Positions 124-5,998 of a DNA stretch of 32,673 bases are shown here, in pieces. The notes under the pieces were generated by a model. It saw only the letters and a list, made by a program, of their open reading frames with translations, searched no databases and was not told where the DNA came from. This stretch comes from Verrucomicrobiota bacterium (GTDB lineage: Bacteria > Verrucomicrobiota > Verrucomicrobiia > Limisphaerales > JADLHS01), in NCBI GenBank assembly GCA_025350905.1, contig JANXWY010000353.1, forward strand, positions 1-32,673, in the 5' to 3' direction. How positions within the stretch are numbered: the stretch's first letter is position 1; every line of letters begins with the position of its first letter. Both the position numbers and the translations under genes were made by a program.

Positions 124-144
124 ACTTGGGAATGTTGCCCAAGT
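124..144 (-). terminator. hairpin after the beta-helix gene remnant
   Basis: ACTTGGG and CCCAAGT form a perfect 7-bp stem around a 7-nt loop. The hairpin begins one base after the TAG that ends the C-terminal remnant on the minus strand. There is no T-run, so factor-independent termination is only a possibility. Confidence 0.3.
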
Positions 145-234
145 CTATGGCGAGCGGAGGTGGTAAAATCGACCGGGATAATTCGTCCACTGCGGATCAC
201 TGAAATAGGACAAGCCGCCGGTGAGGGGGTTAGT
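145..234 (-). pseudogene. C-terminal remnant of a Verrucomicrobia exported protein
   Basis: In the -1 frame relative to the beta-helix gene, the minus strand reads from about codon 234 to a TAG at 147-145. It encodes a tail with the segment YFSDPQWTNYPGRFYHLRSP. This resembles the Asn/Thr-rich C-termini ending in FYRLR that are common in exported Verrucomicrobia proteins. It overlaps the last codons of the upstream frame, so it looks like the true end of the same gene after an internal deletion or frameshift. That relation is inferred from position and style, not from an alignment. Confidence 0.5.
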
Positions 235-730
235 TCAGATCGGCGACCAAACCGTCGCCGTAGCCGCCGGTGTTGCCGCTCACGGCGCAACCGGCCAACG
301 TTTGCGCGCTGGAATTGTAAATGCCGCCGCCGCTCTCACCATCGCTGCCGGCGGTCATGCCGTCGGGTGCGTGGCCATCGCGGATGGTGAGGTTGGAGAT
401 GGTGACGGTGGCGTTCGATCCGATCTCGAAAACGCGGCTGTTGGTGTTGCCACTGATGGCGAGGCCCGCTGCACCCGGGCCGACAATAACCAGATCGGCG
501 GCGACGAGCAGTTCGCCGGTGGTGAGTGTGATGCTGCCCGTGACCGAGAAGTTGATCGTGTCCCCGGCAGCAGCGTCTTGGATGGCCTGGCGCAGCGAGC
601 CACTTCCGCCATCGTTGGTATTGCTGACGGTGATTGTGGCCGCGCTCAGTTGGATCGGCAGTTCACCCACGATAGCGACGAACACGAGGATGTTCAGCGC
701 CAATCTTGAGCAACAAGCGATGTTTTTCAT
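230..730 (-). CDS. truncated exported beta-helix protein
   Basis: The start is taken as the ATG at 730-728 because an upstream TTG at 745 only adds five residues before a normal signal peptide (basic start, hydrophobic core NILVFVAIVGELPIQLSA). The mature part begins with ITVSNTNDGGSGSLRQAIQDA, the entry segment of CSLREA-type/polymorphic outer membrane right-handed beta-helix proteins. It continues with short repeats such as VTISNLTIRDG and GGGIYN. Only about 166 residues remain, whereas such proteins usually have several hundred, and the frame ends just after a GNTGG segment. A likely C-terminal remnant lies in the next frame (145-234), so the gene is probably decayed. A copy of the shared promoter-like motif lies 44 nt upstream. 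Confidence 0.65.
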   Translation of the reverse strand: MKNIACCSRLALNILVFVAIVGELPIQLSAATITVSNTNDGGSGSLRQAIQDAAAGDTINFSVTGSITLTTGELLVAADLVIVGPGAAGLAISGNTNSRVFEIGSNATVTISNLTIRDGHAPDGMTAGSDGESGGGIYNSSAQTLAGCAVSGNTGGYGDGLVADLN

Positions 731-773
731 AAATGGTGTCAGCAATTTTCACTCAGCTTTGGCTGATACCCCT

Positions 774-801
774 TACAACAGGAAAACTGGGAAAACCTTA
801 C
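774..801 (-). promoter_or_regulatory. bipartite promoter-like motif, copy A (beta-helix gene)
   Basis: On the minus strand GTAAGGTTT begins at 801 and TTGTA ends at 774, with TTCC before the second box. The two boxes are 17 bp apart (GTAAGG to TTGTA), exactly as in copies B and C. It lies between the preceding gene's stop (824) and the beta-helix start (730). An ECF sigma promoter is the favoured reading, by inference. Confidence 0.6.
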
Positions 802-823
802 ATGTAAGAGAAGTGAAGCGCCG

Positions 824-1345
824 TCACTTCTTCCCTTTGTCGGTAACTTCCACATGTCCCTTCATTTTCCAGGTTGCCTTGCCTGCAGAGGCGGCAGTGA
901 ACATGGCCGCTCCCCTAATCTCGGCCTCACCGCGCGCGGCCACGTATTGGCCTGAGCCACCTGTGAACGCCACGTGGTATTGGAAGTTGAGGAAACTCGG
1001 ATTGGCTGGATCAGGTGTTGCAGTGCCTTCGACCGCGGCCTTTAGAGTCGTAGCCCCGTCAGCAGTGGTGATGGTGAAGGAACCCTTTAGGATGGGGGGC
1101 TGGCCGGGGCTGGCCGGGAACCGCGCCACGACATCGGCATGAACCGTGCAGTTGCCCAGAAACGAAACTTGGGCGATGCCATCGATAGTGTGCGTGAACA
1201 CGGTCGGATCGGTGGTGGGCATGAAGTCAAAGGTCGTCCCCGCATTGACGCGGATTTCTGCCGCGCTGATGGAGCTGCTCGTGAGGATTAGGGCTGAGCA
1301 GCCGAGCGCGAGGCCGAGATGTTTGAACAGACTGAATCTTATCAT
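824..1345 (-). CDS. small exported protein of unknown function
   Basis: This encodes 173 residues with a clear signal peptide (LGLALGCSALILTSSSISAA) and a predicted mature protein starting near AEIRVNAG. The ATG at 1345 was chosen over a GTG at 1423 because it places the signal peptide at the N-terminus and has AAAGGG as a ribosome binding site about 8 nt upstream. The mature part is rich in beta-strand-like stretches. It contains GGSGQYVAARGEAEIRGAA, reminiscent of the GGTGRFAGATG turn in small secreted beta-barrel (allene-oxide-cyclase-like) proteins, but the match is weak and I do not assign a family. It lies between the kinase and the beta-helix gene on the same strand, and has its own copy of the promoter-like motif 83 nt upstream, so it may be co-regulated with the kinase. 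Confidence 0.75.
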   Translation of the reverse strand: MIRFSLFKHLGLALGCSALILTSSSISAAEIRVNAGTTFDFMPTTDPTVFTHTIDGIAQVSFLGNCTVHADVVARFPASPGQPPILKGSFTITTADGATTLKAAVEGTATPDPANPSFLNFQYHVAFTGGSGQYVAARGEAEIRGAAMFTAASAGKATWKMKGHVEVTDKGKK

Positions 1346-1427
1346 ATTGTTTTCCCTTTCATGTTTCGGAGGACAGGCTTCCGAAGTGGTTGTTTGTATT
1401 GGCCACTCTGTCTTGGCCGTCACTCTC

Positions 1428-1455
1428 TACAACCGGAAAAACTGGGAAACCTTAC
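1428..1455 (-). promoter_or_regulatory. bipartite promoter-like motif, copy B (small exported protein)
   Basis: GTAAGGTTT begins at 1455 and TTGTA ends at 1428 on the minus strand, with TTCC in the same relative place as in copies A and C. It is nearest in sequence to copy A, including the spacer, and lies between the kinase stop (1501) and the 1345 start. Confidence 0.6.
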
Positions 1456-1500
1456 AGGCGAAGAAAAGCGATGCGTCACGGGCGATCGCTTATCCTCTTT

Positions 1501-4500
1501 TCAAGGCAGTCGGCTGTGGCCGTCCGGACTAGCGGCTGTGTCAGTCTCCACGAAGCTGGGCGCGGTCCAAAGCCGCATCGTCTGGTCAACACAGATTGTC
1601 GCGAAAGTTTTGTCATCTGGTGAAAAAGCGAGGCCACAAACGATGGTGTCGTGAGCTTTGAGCGTCATGATTTCGCGACATGTGGCAACATTCCAAAATT
1701 TGACCGCTCCATCGTGACTGCCAACGGCGAGCGTTTTGCCATCGTGTGAGAAAGCTAAGCACCAGACCGAACCTGCTTCACCGTGCAGTTGCCGCACGTT
1801 TCCGGTTGCTACGTCCCACAGCCGAATCACGGTGTCTCTGCCACCTGTGGCCAGCCACCTACCATCAGGGGAGAAAGCCAGACTTAGGTAATCTTGTTTC
1901 GGAACTGGAAATAACCGCCACGTTGACCAGTCACCTGCGTCCCACAGCCGTATGTCGCCCCGGGCGGAGCTTGTCGTAAAAAGCTTTCCGTCCGGCGAAA
2001 ACATATAATTCTGGATGTTATCACGGGGCGCGGCAGCTACCCCGATCTTCGTTACTTCGATCCACTCGTCCGTGCGCCAGAGCGTAATGGAGTTCGACTG
2101 ATTGCGAACAGCCAGCAAACGGCCATCTGGCGACCAGCAAGGTTGTTCATTGAGTTTGAGCTTAATTCGCGCGGGGATCGTGCGAACAAGCTTAGGTTCA
2201 GTCCCTACCATACTCCAAATTTCACCGCTTGCTTCACGCACGCACGCAAGCAACTTGGAGTCTGGAGAAAACGCGGAGCCGGACGCTGGAATAGTTGCGA
2301 CTTTGGCTTGCGTCGCGGCGGTCCACAACGTGACTTCATCAGCAGCGTTTCGAATCAACCATCGACCATCCGGTGAAAAAGCGACCGAAGCGTAGACCCC
2401 GCGGTGGCGGTCGAACACGACGGACTTACCTCGCCGTGGCACTGGCCACACCTTGGCGGTGCCATCGAGGCTGCCGGTGGCCATTTGTTGGCCATCTCGA
2501 GAGAAACTTACGCTGAAGACGCGTCCGGAATGACCTTTCAACGTTGTAACTTCCCGCGCTTCTTCCACGTCCCAAAGCTTTGCCGTATGATCAAGACTTC
2601 CAGATGCCAGGCGCTTTCCATCGGGAGCAAAAGCAACAGAGAACACCGGGCCGGCATGTTCGCCGAGCACTGTGGTCATTTGGCCTTTGGCCTGGTTCCA
2701 AAGACGGACGGTGCCATCTTTTCCGCCGCTCGCGATCAGCTTTCCATCCGGTGAGAACGCAACGGAAATGACCAAGCCGTGATGACTGCCCATTGATCTT
2801 ATGACTTGGCGAGAGTGAATGTCCCACAAAAGGATCGTGCCGTCACCCATTGGCGAGGCGAGGGTGGAACCGTCCGGGGAGAAGGCCACGTATCCGACGG
2901 AAGACCGATGGCCCACCAGTTGGGCACGTTGCTTCATGGAGGCAACGTCCCAAATGAAAATTTCGCCAGGATCATTCGTCGCATAAGCCCAGCCAGCGAC
3001 CGAAGCAAGTGACTGGCCGTCCGGGCTGAAGGCGACGCTCGGCACACCTTTCGAATGTCCGCGCAGCAGCCCCTTGACTTGATGGGTTTGGACATTCCAT
3101 ACGTGAATGGGAGTCATTCCGTCGTTGCTCGGCGTCACGAGGGTTTGCCCGTCGGGAGAAAAGGCAAGAGAGTACACAATGCCGCTACCGCAAGTGAGGC
3201 TTGCCACTTCCTGTCGTGTTTGCAAATCCCAGAGCAGCACTTTCCCGTCTTCGCCTCCGGCCGCGAACATACGACCATCCGGGGAAATGGCACTTCCCCA
3301 GATCTCGAGCGACTTGCTCTGTAGCGTGAACAACTCCTGGGAGCGCGTGATTCCGTGCAAGTAACGCCACTCGAAGCTCCGAAGATCCGTTTGGCCACTC
3401 ATCGGCCTCTGTTGCTCGAGCAGCACGCGAGCGCGACTCGCGTTGCCTGATTCCCACGCCTGGAAAGAAAGGCCCACGTCCGCGACATAAAGGTTTTGCC
3501 GCAATGTTTCTGCCGCAATCCTGGCCCGTTCTCCCTCGCTTTTGGCCAAGCGTCCTTCCCTTTCAGCTCGAACCGCTTGCCATATACTAACCACCATCCC
3601 GAGCACAAGCACCGCCACGACCGCCGTGCCAGCCGATACCAAGCCCTTGTTGCGACGAACCAGTTTTTGGAATCGATAGACATTGCTCGGCGGACTGGCG
3701 ATCACCGGTTCGTTATGTAAGTGCCGCTCAACATCACTCGCCAATCCATTCGCCGTTTCATAGCGGCGGGCCCGCTCTTTCTCCAGGCATTTCATCACGA
3801 TCCAATCCAAGTCGCCACGCACCAGGTGGATGAGTTCCTTGAGCCGATGAGGGTTGAGAGTCGAGGGTGTTGTGGTAGGGCGCGTCACTCCGAGGTCTTG
3901 GGTGAGGCGCGTGCTGGGTTTCGGCGGCTCTTTCTCCAGAATTGTGCGCCGCATCGTATCAATCCCCGCTCCCAGCAACTCTTTTGCGTCGAAAGGAGTC
4001 TTGCTGGTCAGCAACTCGTAGAGCAGTACGCCGAGGCTGTAGATGTCGCTGCGGGTGTCCACATCCAGTCCGCCCAACTGCGCTTGCTCCGGGCTCATGT
4101 AAGCCGGCGTACCGATGAATTGTTCGAAGGCCGTGAAGAGCGTTTGGTCCGTCAAACGTCCTTGTGTGGCTTTGGCGATGCCGAAGTCAATCACCTTCGG
4201 CACCGGCACGCCGTCGTGCGTCGCCACGAGGACGTTCGAGGGTTTTATGTCGCGGTGGATGATGCCCTTCTGGTGCGCGTGCTGGATCGCGCGGCAGACT
4301 TGGACAAAGAGGTCTAGCCTTTGGCGCGTCGTGAGATTATTCTGCTCGCAGTAGTCGGTGATTTTGACTCCACCCACAAGTTCCATCACGAAATACGGCC
4401 GGCCAGCCGATACCGTAGCGGCAGGCATCTTGCCTGCCGTAGAGGGCGGCATCCTGCCGCCCGGACTGGCTGCCGAGTCAGCAATGGCCTCCGATTTTTC

Positions 4501-4986
4501 CAAGCGACCCGAGTTTCGAACGCTTCTTCCGCCGGGCTGGAAGCCCGGCTCTACGGCTGGCAGGATGCCCGCCGCTACGGGAGCTTCCGTCATCCCCGCG
4601 TCGTAAATCTTCGCAATGTTGGGATGGTCCATCAGGGCCAGTGCCTGGCGTTCGGCTTCGAAGCGGGCGACCACTTGTTTCGTGTCCATGCCCAGCTTGA
4701 TGACCTTGAGCGCGACTTTGCGGCGGACCGGCTCTTCCTGTTCCGCCATGTAAACCACTCCGCAACCGCCGTGGCCGATCTCCTGGAGCAGACGATAGCG
4801 GCCAATCCAGTCGCCGGGTTTCTCGGTCACCAGTCCTGACTCTTCCTGCGCCTGACTTTGGACTTTAGACTTTAGACTTTGGCCTTCACGGAGACCCAAG
4901 CCCAGCAAACATTGGGCGCAGAATCCCCCCGGGCTATCAGCTGAAATGGCCGTGCCGCATTCTCTGCACTTGTCGCCAGCATTCAT
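1501..4986 (-). CDS. membrane Ser/Thr protein kinase with zinc ribbon and 14 WD40 repeats
   Basis: The 1161-residue product starts at the ATG at 4986 (MNAGDKCRECG); a TTG 13 codons earlier lies in repeat-like DNA. Residues 7-26 form a CxxC...CxxC zinc ribbon. The kinase domain spans about 64-425, with glycine loop GHGGCGVVY (71-79), Lys94, catalytic HRDIKPSN (Asp246), DFG (Asp267) and the GTPAYMSPEQ activation segment, so it should be active. One membrane helix lies at about 449-471, after which about 14 WD40 repeats (…FSPDG…LWD…) fill the C-terminal half, enough for two seven-bladed propellers. The topology suggests a cytoplasmic kinase and an exported propeller that senses or binds a partner. 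Residues 135-194 are an unusual insert between the N-lobe and the hinge, encoded by tandem palindromes. It follows an ECF sigma gene, as is common in Planctomycetes and Verrucomicrobia, where such kinases may control the sigma factor; that link is inferred here. Confidence 0.92.
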   Translation of the reverse strand: MNAGDKCRECGTAISADSPGGFCAQCLLGLGLREGQSLKSKVQSQAQEESGLVTEKPGDWIGRYRLLQEIGHGGCGVVYMAEQEEPVRRKVALKVIKLGMDTKQVVARFEAERQALALMDHPNIAKIYDAGMTEAPVAAGILPAVEPGFQPGGRSVRNSGRLEKSEAIADSAASPGGRMPPSTAGKMPAATVSAGRPYFVMELVGGVKITDYCEQNNLTTRQRLDLFVQVCRAIQHAHQKGIIHRDIKPSNVLVATHDGVPVPKVIDFGIAKATQGRLTDQTLFTAFEQFIGTPAYMSPEQAQLGGLDVDTRSDIYSLGVLLYELLTSKTPFDAKELLGAGIDTMRRTILEKEPPKPSTRLTQDLGVTRPTTTPSTLNPHRLKELIHLVRGDLDWIVMKCLEKERARRYETANGLASDVERHLHNEPVIASPPSNVYRFQKLVRRNKGLVSAGTAVVAVLVLGMVVSIWQAVRAEREGRLAKSEGERARIAAETLRQNLYVADVGLSFQAWESGNASRARVLLEQQRPMSGQTDLRSFEWRYLHGITRSQELFTLQSKSLEIWGSAISPDGRMFAAGGEDGKVLLWDLQTRQEVASLTCGSGIVYSLAFSPDGQTLVTPSNDGMTPIHVWNVQTHQVKGLLRGHSKGVPSVAFSPDGQSLASVAGWAYATNDPGEIFIWDVASMKQRAQLVGHRSSVGYVAFSPDGSTLASPMGDGTILLWDIHSRQVIRSMGSHHGLVISVAFSPDGKLIASGGKDGTVRLWNQAKGQMTTVLGEHAGPVFSVAFAPDGKRLASGSLDHTAKLWDVEEAREVTTLKGHSGRVFSVSFSRDGQQMATGSLDGTAKVWPVPRRGKSVVFDRHRGVYASVAFSPDGRWLIRNAADEVTLWTAATQAKVATIPASGSAFSPDSKLLACVREASGEIWSMVGTEPKLVRTIPARIKLKLNEQPCWSPDGRLLAVRNQSNSITLWRTDEWIEVTKIGVAAAPRDNIQNYMFSPDGKLFTTSSARGDIRLWDAGDWSTWRLFPVPKQDYLSLAFSPDGRWLATGGRDTVIRLWDVATGNVRQLHGEAGSVWCLAFSHDGKTLAVGSHDGAVKFWNVATCREIMTLKAHDTIVCGLAFSPDDKTFATICVDQTMRLWTAPSFVETDTAASPDGHSRLP
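4405..4584. repeat. array of short GC-rich palindromes inserted in frame in the kinase gene
   Basis: Three perfect hairpins with 8- or 9-bp stems and 3-nt loops lie at 4419-4439 (GGCAGGCA/TGCCTGCC), 4444-4462 (GGGCGGCA/TGCCGCCC) and 4531-4549 (GCCGGGCT/AGCCCGGC). A fourth, imperfect one lies at about 4560-4574. The block encodes about 60 residues of low-complexity peptide (AAGILPAVEPG, GGRMPPSTAGKMPAAT) between kinase strands that normally adjoin. It looks like a dispersed palindromic element that entered the gene without breaking the frame. Confidence 0.7.
4854..4881. repeat. 7-bp tandem repeat, four units, in the kinase coding region
   Basis: On the plus strand GACTTTG, GACTTTA, GACTTTA and GACTTTG follow each other without gaps. 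The repeat encodes residues 36-44 of the kinase, in the linker between the zinc ribbon and the catalytic domain. Because the unit is not a multiple of three, loss or gain of one copy would shift the frame upstream of the kinase domain. Confidence 0.8.
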
Positions 4987-5010
4987 CCAAAAATCGGCAG
5001 TTAACGCAAA

Positions 5011-5139
5011 GGCGCCAAGGGGCAATGGCGCAAGGGAAACGGAGGGTGAAGTAAAGCCGGGTTTAGTTGACTCATCCGGTGGCTGACGGCCCGAGCCAAC
5101 TCATCTCGTTGCGTCTTTGCGCCTTTGCACCTTGGCGTT
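5011..5139. repeat. imperfect inverted repeat in the kinase leader
   Basis: The 25-nt arms at 5011-5035 and 5115-5139 are complementary at about 20 of 25 positions and carry CGCCAAGG and GGCGCAA segments. The 79-nt region between them shows no gene. The pair lies between the promoter-like motif at 5176-5203 and the kinase ATG, so it would be in the mRNA leader. Arms built from CGCAAAGGCGC words resemble dispersed intergenic repeats. Confidence 0.5.
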
Positions 5140-5175
5140 GCTTCGGCTGCGTTGTCAAAGTTCATAGCCATTTGT

Positions 5176-5203
5176 TACAAACGGAATCGCGCGAAAACCT
5201 TAC
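5176..5203 (-). promoter_or_regulatory. bipartite promoter-like motif, copy C (kinase gene)
   Basis: GTAAGGTTT begins at 5203 and TTGTA ends at 5176 on the minus strand, with the TTCC element conserved. The spacer is otherwise different from copies A and B (GCGCGA instead of CCAGTT), so the boxes are conserved and not simply part of a recent duplication. It begins 12 bp after the sigma gene's stop and gives a leader of about 180 nt before the kinase ATG. Confidence 0.6.
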
Positions 5204-5215
5204 TAGAAACTTTAG

Positions 5216-5998
5216 TCACCCGCTGAGCACCGAGATGAGGTAACGGATCTCTTCCTCCACCTCAGCCTCGGATGAAACCGTCTGGGCGACTTGCTCCCGC
5301 AGTAGTGCGCCGAAGCGCAAACGCAAACGGTGAATCGCCACATCAATGGCGCCCATAGTGACGCCGCGTTTAGCTGCCAGTTCCACTCGGGAAACACTGC
5401 CTTGGCCGCAGGGAAGAAAGCCTTGTAGCGCCTCGAAGAGGTCACTCTTTCCACCCCCGGCATATTCGTGCCGCAACTCGGTGATGGTTCGCTCGATCAC
5501 GGCGAAGGCCCAGCGCCGTTCAAATACCGCTTCGGGTGTGCGGTTGTCGGCGGGTTCCAGCGAGAAGCGTGTCTCGGCATCACGGCTGTCCAGGGAAATG
5601 AGCGGTTGGCCACCGCCCCGGCGTCGAGCGTTGGCCCGTTCGCGTTCGTTGGCCAGAAAGTTCTTCAAGCAGATCAGAAGGAACGAACGGAACTTGCCGG
5701 CCGATGGCCGCACGTTAACGAGCGGATTCTTTTCCAGGAAATGACAGAAGAAGCCCTGCGTGAGGTCTTCGGCCTCATGAGGGCTTGAGCCTTGGCGCCG
5801 GATGAAAGCGTAGAGCGGAAACCAGTAAGTCGTGCACAATCTGCCAAGCGCCTCGTGGGCAGTCGCGCCGTTTTTTTCCCGCGCCGCCAGCACGACCGTC
5901 CAGTGGGTGGTATGAAATCCCATTCCCGCTGTGGGCAGGTCCGAACTCGTTGAGGCAACCCCGGACATCAGCGAAAGATTAATGCGATGGATTACCAT
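5216..5998 (-). CDS. ECF-type RNA polymerase sigma factor
   Basis: The product is 260 residues if the ATG at 5998 is used; ATGs at 5968 and 5923 are alternatives, and none has a strong ribosome binding site. The TTHWTVVLAA start and the sigma region 2 segment (WFPLYAFIRRQG, AEDLTQGFFCHFLEK, GKFRSFLLICLKNFLANERE) match the large PVC-specific ECF group that sits beside Ser/Thr kinases. Region 4 is at about 170-240, with a helix-turn-helix around VSRVELAAKRGVTMGAIDVA and IHRLRLRFGALLREQV. No anti-sigma factor gene is adjacent; the WD40 kinase just downstream is the likely partner. The promoter-like motif repeated in front of the next three genes is a candidate target, although the sigma gene itself lacks it. 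Confidence 0.9.
   Translation of the reverse strand: MVIHRINLSLMSGVASTSSDLPTAGMGFHTTHWTVVLAAREKNGATAHEALGRLCTTYWFPLYAFIRRQGSSPHEAEDLTQGFFCHFLEKNPLVNVRPSAGKFRSFLLICLKNFLANERERANARRRGGGQPLISLDSRDAETRFSLEPADNRTPEAVFERRWAFAVIERTITELRHEYAGGGKSDLFEALQGFLPCGQGSVSRVELAAKRGVTMGAIDVAIHRLRLRFGALLREQVAQTVSSEAEVEEEIRYLISVLSG

Follow-up and report, generated by a model that had tools for sequence, protein, structure and literature searches.

The 28-bp motif GTAAGGTTT-N8-TTCC-N2-TTGTA is very probably a promoter recognised by the neighbouring ECF sigma factor (gene at 5998-5216, minus strand), which would transcribe a Ser/Thr kinase gene and a few exported-protein genes from it. The window, the whole stretch of DNA analysed (32,673 nt), was one entire contig of a 6.27-Mb MAG consisting of 489 contigs. 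Scanning of the window showed that the exact pattern occurred three times on the minus strand, at 801-774 (copy 1), 1455-1428 (copy 2) and 5203-5176 (copy 3). As the earlier note had claimed, all three copies were intergenic, had the same orientation and kept one 28-bp layout. With up to three mismatches allowed, the window contained zero sites beyond these three, and a site was found in 0 of 100 dinucleotide shuffles of the window. The spacers were TCCCAGTT-like, CCCAGTTT-like and TCGCGCGA, respectively; their comparison bore out the divergence of the third. The claim that there was no further copy held for the window and failed for the genome, in which a fourth exact copy was located at C93:3815-3842, upstream of an exported BNR-repeat protein gene. 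About 5e-5 exact sites were expected by chance in the 6.27-Mb genome, versus four observed. At three mismatches the genome scan yielded only two additional sites, not above the reversed-pattern control.

The leader just 3' of the motif was alike in copies 1 and 2 and in the C93 copy (AGGGGTAACAGCCAA / GAGAGTGACGGCCAA). Because this likeness extends beyond the motif, these copies are probably related in part by duplication and not fully independent. The C93 contig might be a continuation of the window gene cluster. The gene region past the beta-helix gene (window 140-250) ended with the sequence YFSDPQWTNYPGRFY(H/R)LRSP, as did the gene 5' of the C93 motif (L001, about 1540-1640).

On the minus strand, the order was the sigma gene, copy 3, the kinase gene, copy 2, a small exported protein gene, copy 1 and a beta-helix-type exported protein gene. 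The reading frames and Pfam analysis agreed with the earlier placement of the copies ahead of the beta-helix, small exported and WD40-kinase genes. The sigma gene, the proposed reader of the motif, was a frame of 260 aa (5216-5998, exact start uncertain). Copy 3 lay at the sigma-kinase junction, its first base 12 nt past the sigma stop codon, with the -35 block GTAAGGTTT at 5203-5195, TTCC at 5186-5183 and the -10 block GTTTGTA (motif positions 22-28) at 5182-5176. Copy 2 was 82 nt 5' of the ATG of the small exported protein gene (824-1345), a putative target encoding a signal peptide. Copy 1 was 43 nt 5' of the ATG of the beta-helix-type exported protein gene (230-730), also a putative target; its frame stopped short of YFSDPQWTNYPGRFY(H/R)LRSP, so the gene may be truncated. 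The kinase gene (1501-4986) encoded Pfam Pkinase and WD40 domains forming WD40 propellers, an N-terminal zinc ribbon and a single hydrophobic, transmembrane stretch (residues 461-481 of the 1501-5025 frame). The sigma and kinase genes had no other regulator gene between them, and no anti-sigma gene was evident, in the window and the orthologues. In both, the Ser/Thr kinase gene was directly 3' of the sigma gene, as in kinase-linked ECF groups. Unlike many autoregulated ECF genes, the window sigma gene had no motif copy upstream of itself, which suggests that the kinase is the autoregulated partner.

Although the open frame of the kinase begins with TTG at 5025, its start is probably the ATG at 4986, judging from the orthologues in L019 and L021. 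A palindromic 174-bp insert with inverted repeats (4987-5160) was located between copy 3 and this start, and was flanked by ATGAA (5165-5161 and 4986-4982). For comparison, only about 10 nt separated the motif from the kinase ATG in L019 and L021. Parts of the insert were found again at other places in the genome. The insert apparently split the ancestral kinase start, and the right-hand ATGAA, an apparent duplication, would restore the ATG; the window kinase would thus now have a leader of about 190 nt.

The AlphaFold model of the window sigma had a pLDDT of 81. Residues 30-125 fitted sigmaE region 2 on -10 DNA (2map; rmsd 1.9 over 88, Z 8.2), and residues 163-238 fitted sigmaE region 4 on -35 DNA (2h27; rmsd 2.4 over 69, Z 6.3). 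The sequence matches were weak, namely Pfam Sigma70_r2 and profile matches to ECF chains. The predicted model thus contained sigma2 and sigma4 folds alone, as expected of an ECF (group 4) factor, and the claim of an ECF sigma gene just before the third copy was confirmed at 5998-5216. Instead of the ECF Lys/Arg reader with a facing -35 C, the window clade had D219 with G, which is a specificity change inside the ECF fold, with the fold retained. The acidic motif of region 2.2 was present (EAEDLTQ, residues 75-81), and the replacement of DAED by phosphorylatable residues that marks ECF43 was not seen in the window sigma. This one genome contained 12 relatives. The two-block rigid spacing of ECF promoters (near 16-17 nt) was found in all window copies and orthologues as GTAAGGT-N16-TTGTA; SigH activity is highest with a 17-bp spacer (PMC6411747). 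The -35 core was AAG in the window clade, and the ECF-type AAC at most related junctions.

Conservation was investigated in 293 genomes of the order, with motif presence defined as up to one mismatch. Sigma orthologues had identities of 64-76% in six genomes, and a seventh (G142, L096) had a fragment with 77%. The sigma identities among the 293 genomes showed a clear gap, with none above 55% below the orthologues. The motif was found in 7/8 genomes with an orthologue (at least 64% identity) versus 1/285 without one (Fisher P 2e-12). The positive orthologue genomes were the window genome, G011, G160, G142, G061, G188 and G035; in the eighth, G199, the sites carried two mismatches. The match in G123 (L111) was rejected as a real site and attributed to chance, as it had neither an available orthologue nor an exported gene behind it. 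The earlier note had proposed a motif search at orthologous sigma-kinase junctions and across the genome. The motif was present at these junctions, and its genome-wide placement was non-random, all four copies preceding kinase or exported-protein genes. A recognisable copy separated the sigma stop codon from the start of the kinase gene in all eight orthologue genomes, which belong to several families. Exact copies were those of the window, G011, G160 and G142; about two mismatches were present in G061, G035 and G188, and the G199 copy was degenerate. The G188 copy was 386 nt from the sigma stop, displaced by inserted sequence. In the orthologues, the kinase ATG was 9-12 nt 3' of the motif.

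Among the clade copies outside the junctions, 12/13 preceded genes with a signal-type N terminus (the hydrophobicity of the twelve was computed); the thirteenth site was G188 C280:13994. The twelve exported-protein targets, which included those of copies 1 and 2 and of the C93 copy, spanned about seven unrelated families. The G011 copy preceded a Tat-type Cys-rich mini-protein gene, and the gene behind the G160 copy (L021) was orthologous to the small exported protein gene of the window. One Tat-type protein family lay behind copies in G061, in G035 and twice in G199, and the G188 copies preceded two short secreted proteins and one Kelch-like protein. In G199 (L155), a related promoter was found before a homologue sharing the N-terminal repeat of the beta-helix protein. 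This placement supports a regulon without proving it, since exported-protein genes may be a large share of these genomes.

The leaders of the exported genes shared RRGGGTRAMRGCCAAdRC (window 730-774 and 1345-1428; L001, L116-L119, L151, L153 and L157). A small hairpin was common in them (GGCCAAT/ATTGGCC, CAGC/GCTG or GGCA/TGCC), with weak statistics; it is not claimed, the mean z being only -0.9. Sites of a paralogous class, GTAACCTTT-N8-TTCC-N2-TTGTA, also preceded exported proteins in L149, L155 (G199) and L152 (G160), so exported targets may be family-wide. One site of this class was directly behind a truncated sigma gene.

Covariation between sigma residues and motif bases was investigated by a scan of 7560 residue-base pairs across sigma relatives and their junction sites. 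Among the strongest pairs were those linking D219 to positions 5 and 6, V220 to position 3, both N117 and R119 to position 22, N113 to position 24, and A100 to position 25. Each of these pairs scored above every one of 2000 simulations run on a tree of the sigmas, a tree that was weakly supported, with 10/56 inner branches starred. The clade markers F229 and R126 also correlated with position 5, but only at P about 0.01 on the tree. Where residue 219 was Lys or Arg, position 5 was C in 46/48 cases of the training set; Asp was paired with G (8/8) and Gly or Ala with T (3/3). At position 6, C prevailed with Lys, and Arg had either A or G. Residue 220 was paired with position 3 as Val-A, Met-T and Gln-C, and residues 117 and 119 with position 22 as Asn+Trp-T, Asp-C, Lys-G and Asn+Arg-G. 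Residue 113 went with position 24 and residue 100 with position 25. Within the window clade, L123 had an Arg-to-Trp change at residue 119 paired with a G-to-T change at position 22. The D-for-K change was one event in one clade. Tree-based independent pairs were nearly all in the expected direction, with 2-3 per test on supported branches; these were too few for significance, so the tree simulation was used instead.

For an out-of-sample test, a phylum sample supplied 22 additional sigma genes, and clear sites were present at 11 of their junctions. At these 11 new junctions the code was correct at position 3 (11/11), position 5 (11/11), position 6 (11/11; C in the six Lys cases, A or G in the five Arg cases) and position 22 (9/11). 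In the window, the codons concerned were those of the sigma4 recognition helix (residues 215-224, MGAIDVAIHR; 5327-5356, minus strand), with D219 covarying with positions 5 and 6 and V220 with position 3, and those of sigma2 residues 113-119 (NFLANER; 5642-5662, minus strand), covarying with positions 22 and 24. In the SigW-DNA crystal, K170 contacts G'-31, the base opposite C-31 (PMC6713349). D219/V220 aligned with SigW K170/T171, and motif position 5 aligned with -31 (PMC6713349). In the open complex of SigH, consecutive -10 bases are read by N92, N88 and the specificity loop (PMC6411747), and the covarying sigma2 residues were collinear with this reading order, within one base. Covariation of sigma4 with the -35 half and of sigma2 with the -10 half ties the motif to this very sigma. 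It is likely that residues 219, 220, 117 and 119 and bases 3, 5, 6 and 22 form a recognition code in hundreds of uncharacterised kinase-linked ECFs of Verrucomicrobia, Planctomycetes and relatives, so that paralogue regulons would be predictable, and that the window clade switched from Lys/Arg to Asp together with a -35 C-to-G change.

Unseeded motif discovery was carried out on 107 distinct 3' junctions of sigma relatives, with the sequence cut before the kinase coding sequence. An initial run locked onto the kinase zinc-ribbon codons and was repeated with those codons excluded. The motif TGTAACcTTt-N8-tTTgC-tT.tGtAA was returned at about 58 of the 107 junctions, the window junction site included, with a log-likelihood of 530 versus 115-126 in four dinucleotide shuffles. 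The discovered sites came from Verrucomicrobia, Planctomycetes and Lentisphaerae. A previous scan, of 79 loci, gave 13 matches to the general pattern, 10 of which fell in the junction, about 1% of the searched strands. Judged by these sequences, the window motif is one clade's form of a putative promoter architecture that recurs, across at least three phyla, in many pairs of an ECF sigma and a kinase. The -35 block overlapped the sigma stop codon (TG-TAA-C) in many planctomycete pairs (L041, L044, L047, L049, L051, L055, L056, L059, L073 and L075), so that the 3' end of the sigma gene would itself be part of the promoter. A paralogous sigma-kinase pair of the window genome (L011) had its own site, GTAACCTTTTCCCGTTTTCGTTGTA, at G000:C183:16390-16414, three bases shorter; no second copy was found in the genome, the site being at its own junction only.

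In the proposed mechanism, the recognition helix of sigma4 would read GTAAGGTTT as the -35 element, and sigma2 would read motif positions 22-28 (GT/TG/GG + TTGTA) as the -10 element, with TTCC in a conserved spacer. Transcription would start a few nt 3' of the motif. The kinase ATG is 9-12 nt past the motif in the orthologues, and presumably was in the window before the insertion, so the kinase transcript would be nearly leaderless. Besides a few exported-protein genes, the active sigma would transcribe the kinase gene downstream, and its presumed regulator would thereby be subject to positive feedback. The gene order suggests that the membrane kinase controls the sigma, with the outer WD40 part perhaps sensing a signal; the Thr right after the acidic motif (EAEDLT) is a candidate phosphosite only. 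The clade's change of -35 core from AAC to AAG would have accompanied that from Lys/Arg to Asp (D219) in the base-contacting residue, and this pairing would insulate the system from roughly ten same-genome paralogues. The earlier reading as a sigma-specific promoter defining a local regulon stands for the promoter, on covariation and conservation; a wholly local regulon is contradicted by the C93 copy and the distant copies in G199 and G188.

Other explanations were considered. The motif might be the operator of another DNA-binding regulator, or the promoter of another sigma, that merely co-occurs with the pair. The conservation of the spacer (TTCC or TTGC), which exceeds that of many ECF promoters, would fit this, and binding by the adjacent sigma is deduced from sequence. 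However, both halves track the adjacent sigma, the -35 half its recognition helix and the -10 half its sigma2 residues, the covariation order and one contact agree with ECF structures, and the same-genome paralogue L011 has a different site at its own junction only; this explanation is therefore considered improbable.

A dispersed or recently duplicated repeat, moved with gene duplication and having no promoter role, is a highly improbable reading of the motif. Orthologous junctions in different genera preserve the motif layout despite divergent spacers and flanks, the gene families behind the copies are unrelated, each genome has only 1 to 5 copies, and the motif bases covary with sigma residues. 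These points outweigh the leader sequence shared past the motif by copies 1, 2 and C93, and the other repeats in the neighbourhood. An action in RNA, as a leader element or a kinase translation signal, would agree with the short distance to the kinase ATG (9-12 nt in orthologues) and with the small hairpins possible in the exported-gene leaders. However, the exported-gene copies sit at least 40 nt before the start codons, hairpins were significant (P <= 0.02) in only 3/13 leaders, and the bases covary with a DNA-reading helix, which leaves this explanation a negligible probability.

As a promoter of the adjacent sigma, the motif resembles those of SigW, E. coli sigmaE and M. tuberculosis SigH in its rigid spacing and in the assignment of -35 to the sigma4 helix and -10 to sigma2. 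It differs from canonical ECF promoters in having AAG rather than AAC in the -35 core, with Asp instead of Lys/Arg, in its extra TTCC spacer block, and in its location, which is past the sigma gene and ahead of the kinase gene instead of in front of the sigma gene. The pair resembles the ECF43 systems EcfP-PknT (Vibrio parahaemolyticus) and EcfK-PknS (Xanthomonas citri), in which an ECF sigma lies beside a Hanks-type kinase. EcfP is without the acidic DAED motif and gains charge through phosphorylation (PMC8999054). The window sigma, unlike EcfP, retains this motif as EAED, so the phospho-activation of EcfP cannot apply unchanged. Besides ECF43, the kinase-linked groups are ECF59, ECF61, ECF62, ECF217 and ECF283 (PMC8999054). 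The window pair is like these five groups in having the sigma gene beside a Ser/Thr kinase gene with no anti-sigma gene evident; they have members in Planctomycetes and keep an acidic DAED-type motif. Neither a regulon nor a residue-to-base code for them was found in the literature searched, and a search for the promoter string gave unrelated matches only. ECF promoters are a known kind of element. In the papers searched, which lay outside the 2021 ECF reclassification, no description was found of the AAG/Asp variant, of the targets or of a code for this kinase-linked class.

Kinase-linked ECF sigmas are numerous in these phyla, and in the literature searched targets were given only for ECF43. 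One such sigma now gains a putative promoter, a candidate regulon and a base code upheld on new sequences. The code predicts the promoters of paralogues and suggests how a dozen similar sigmas in one cell may stay separate.
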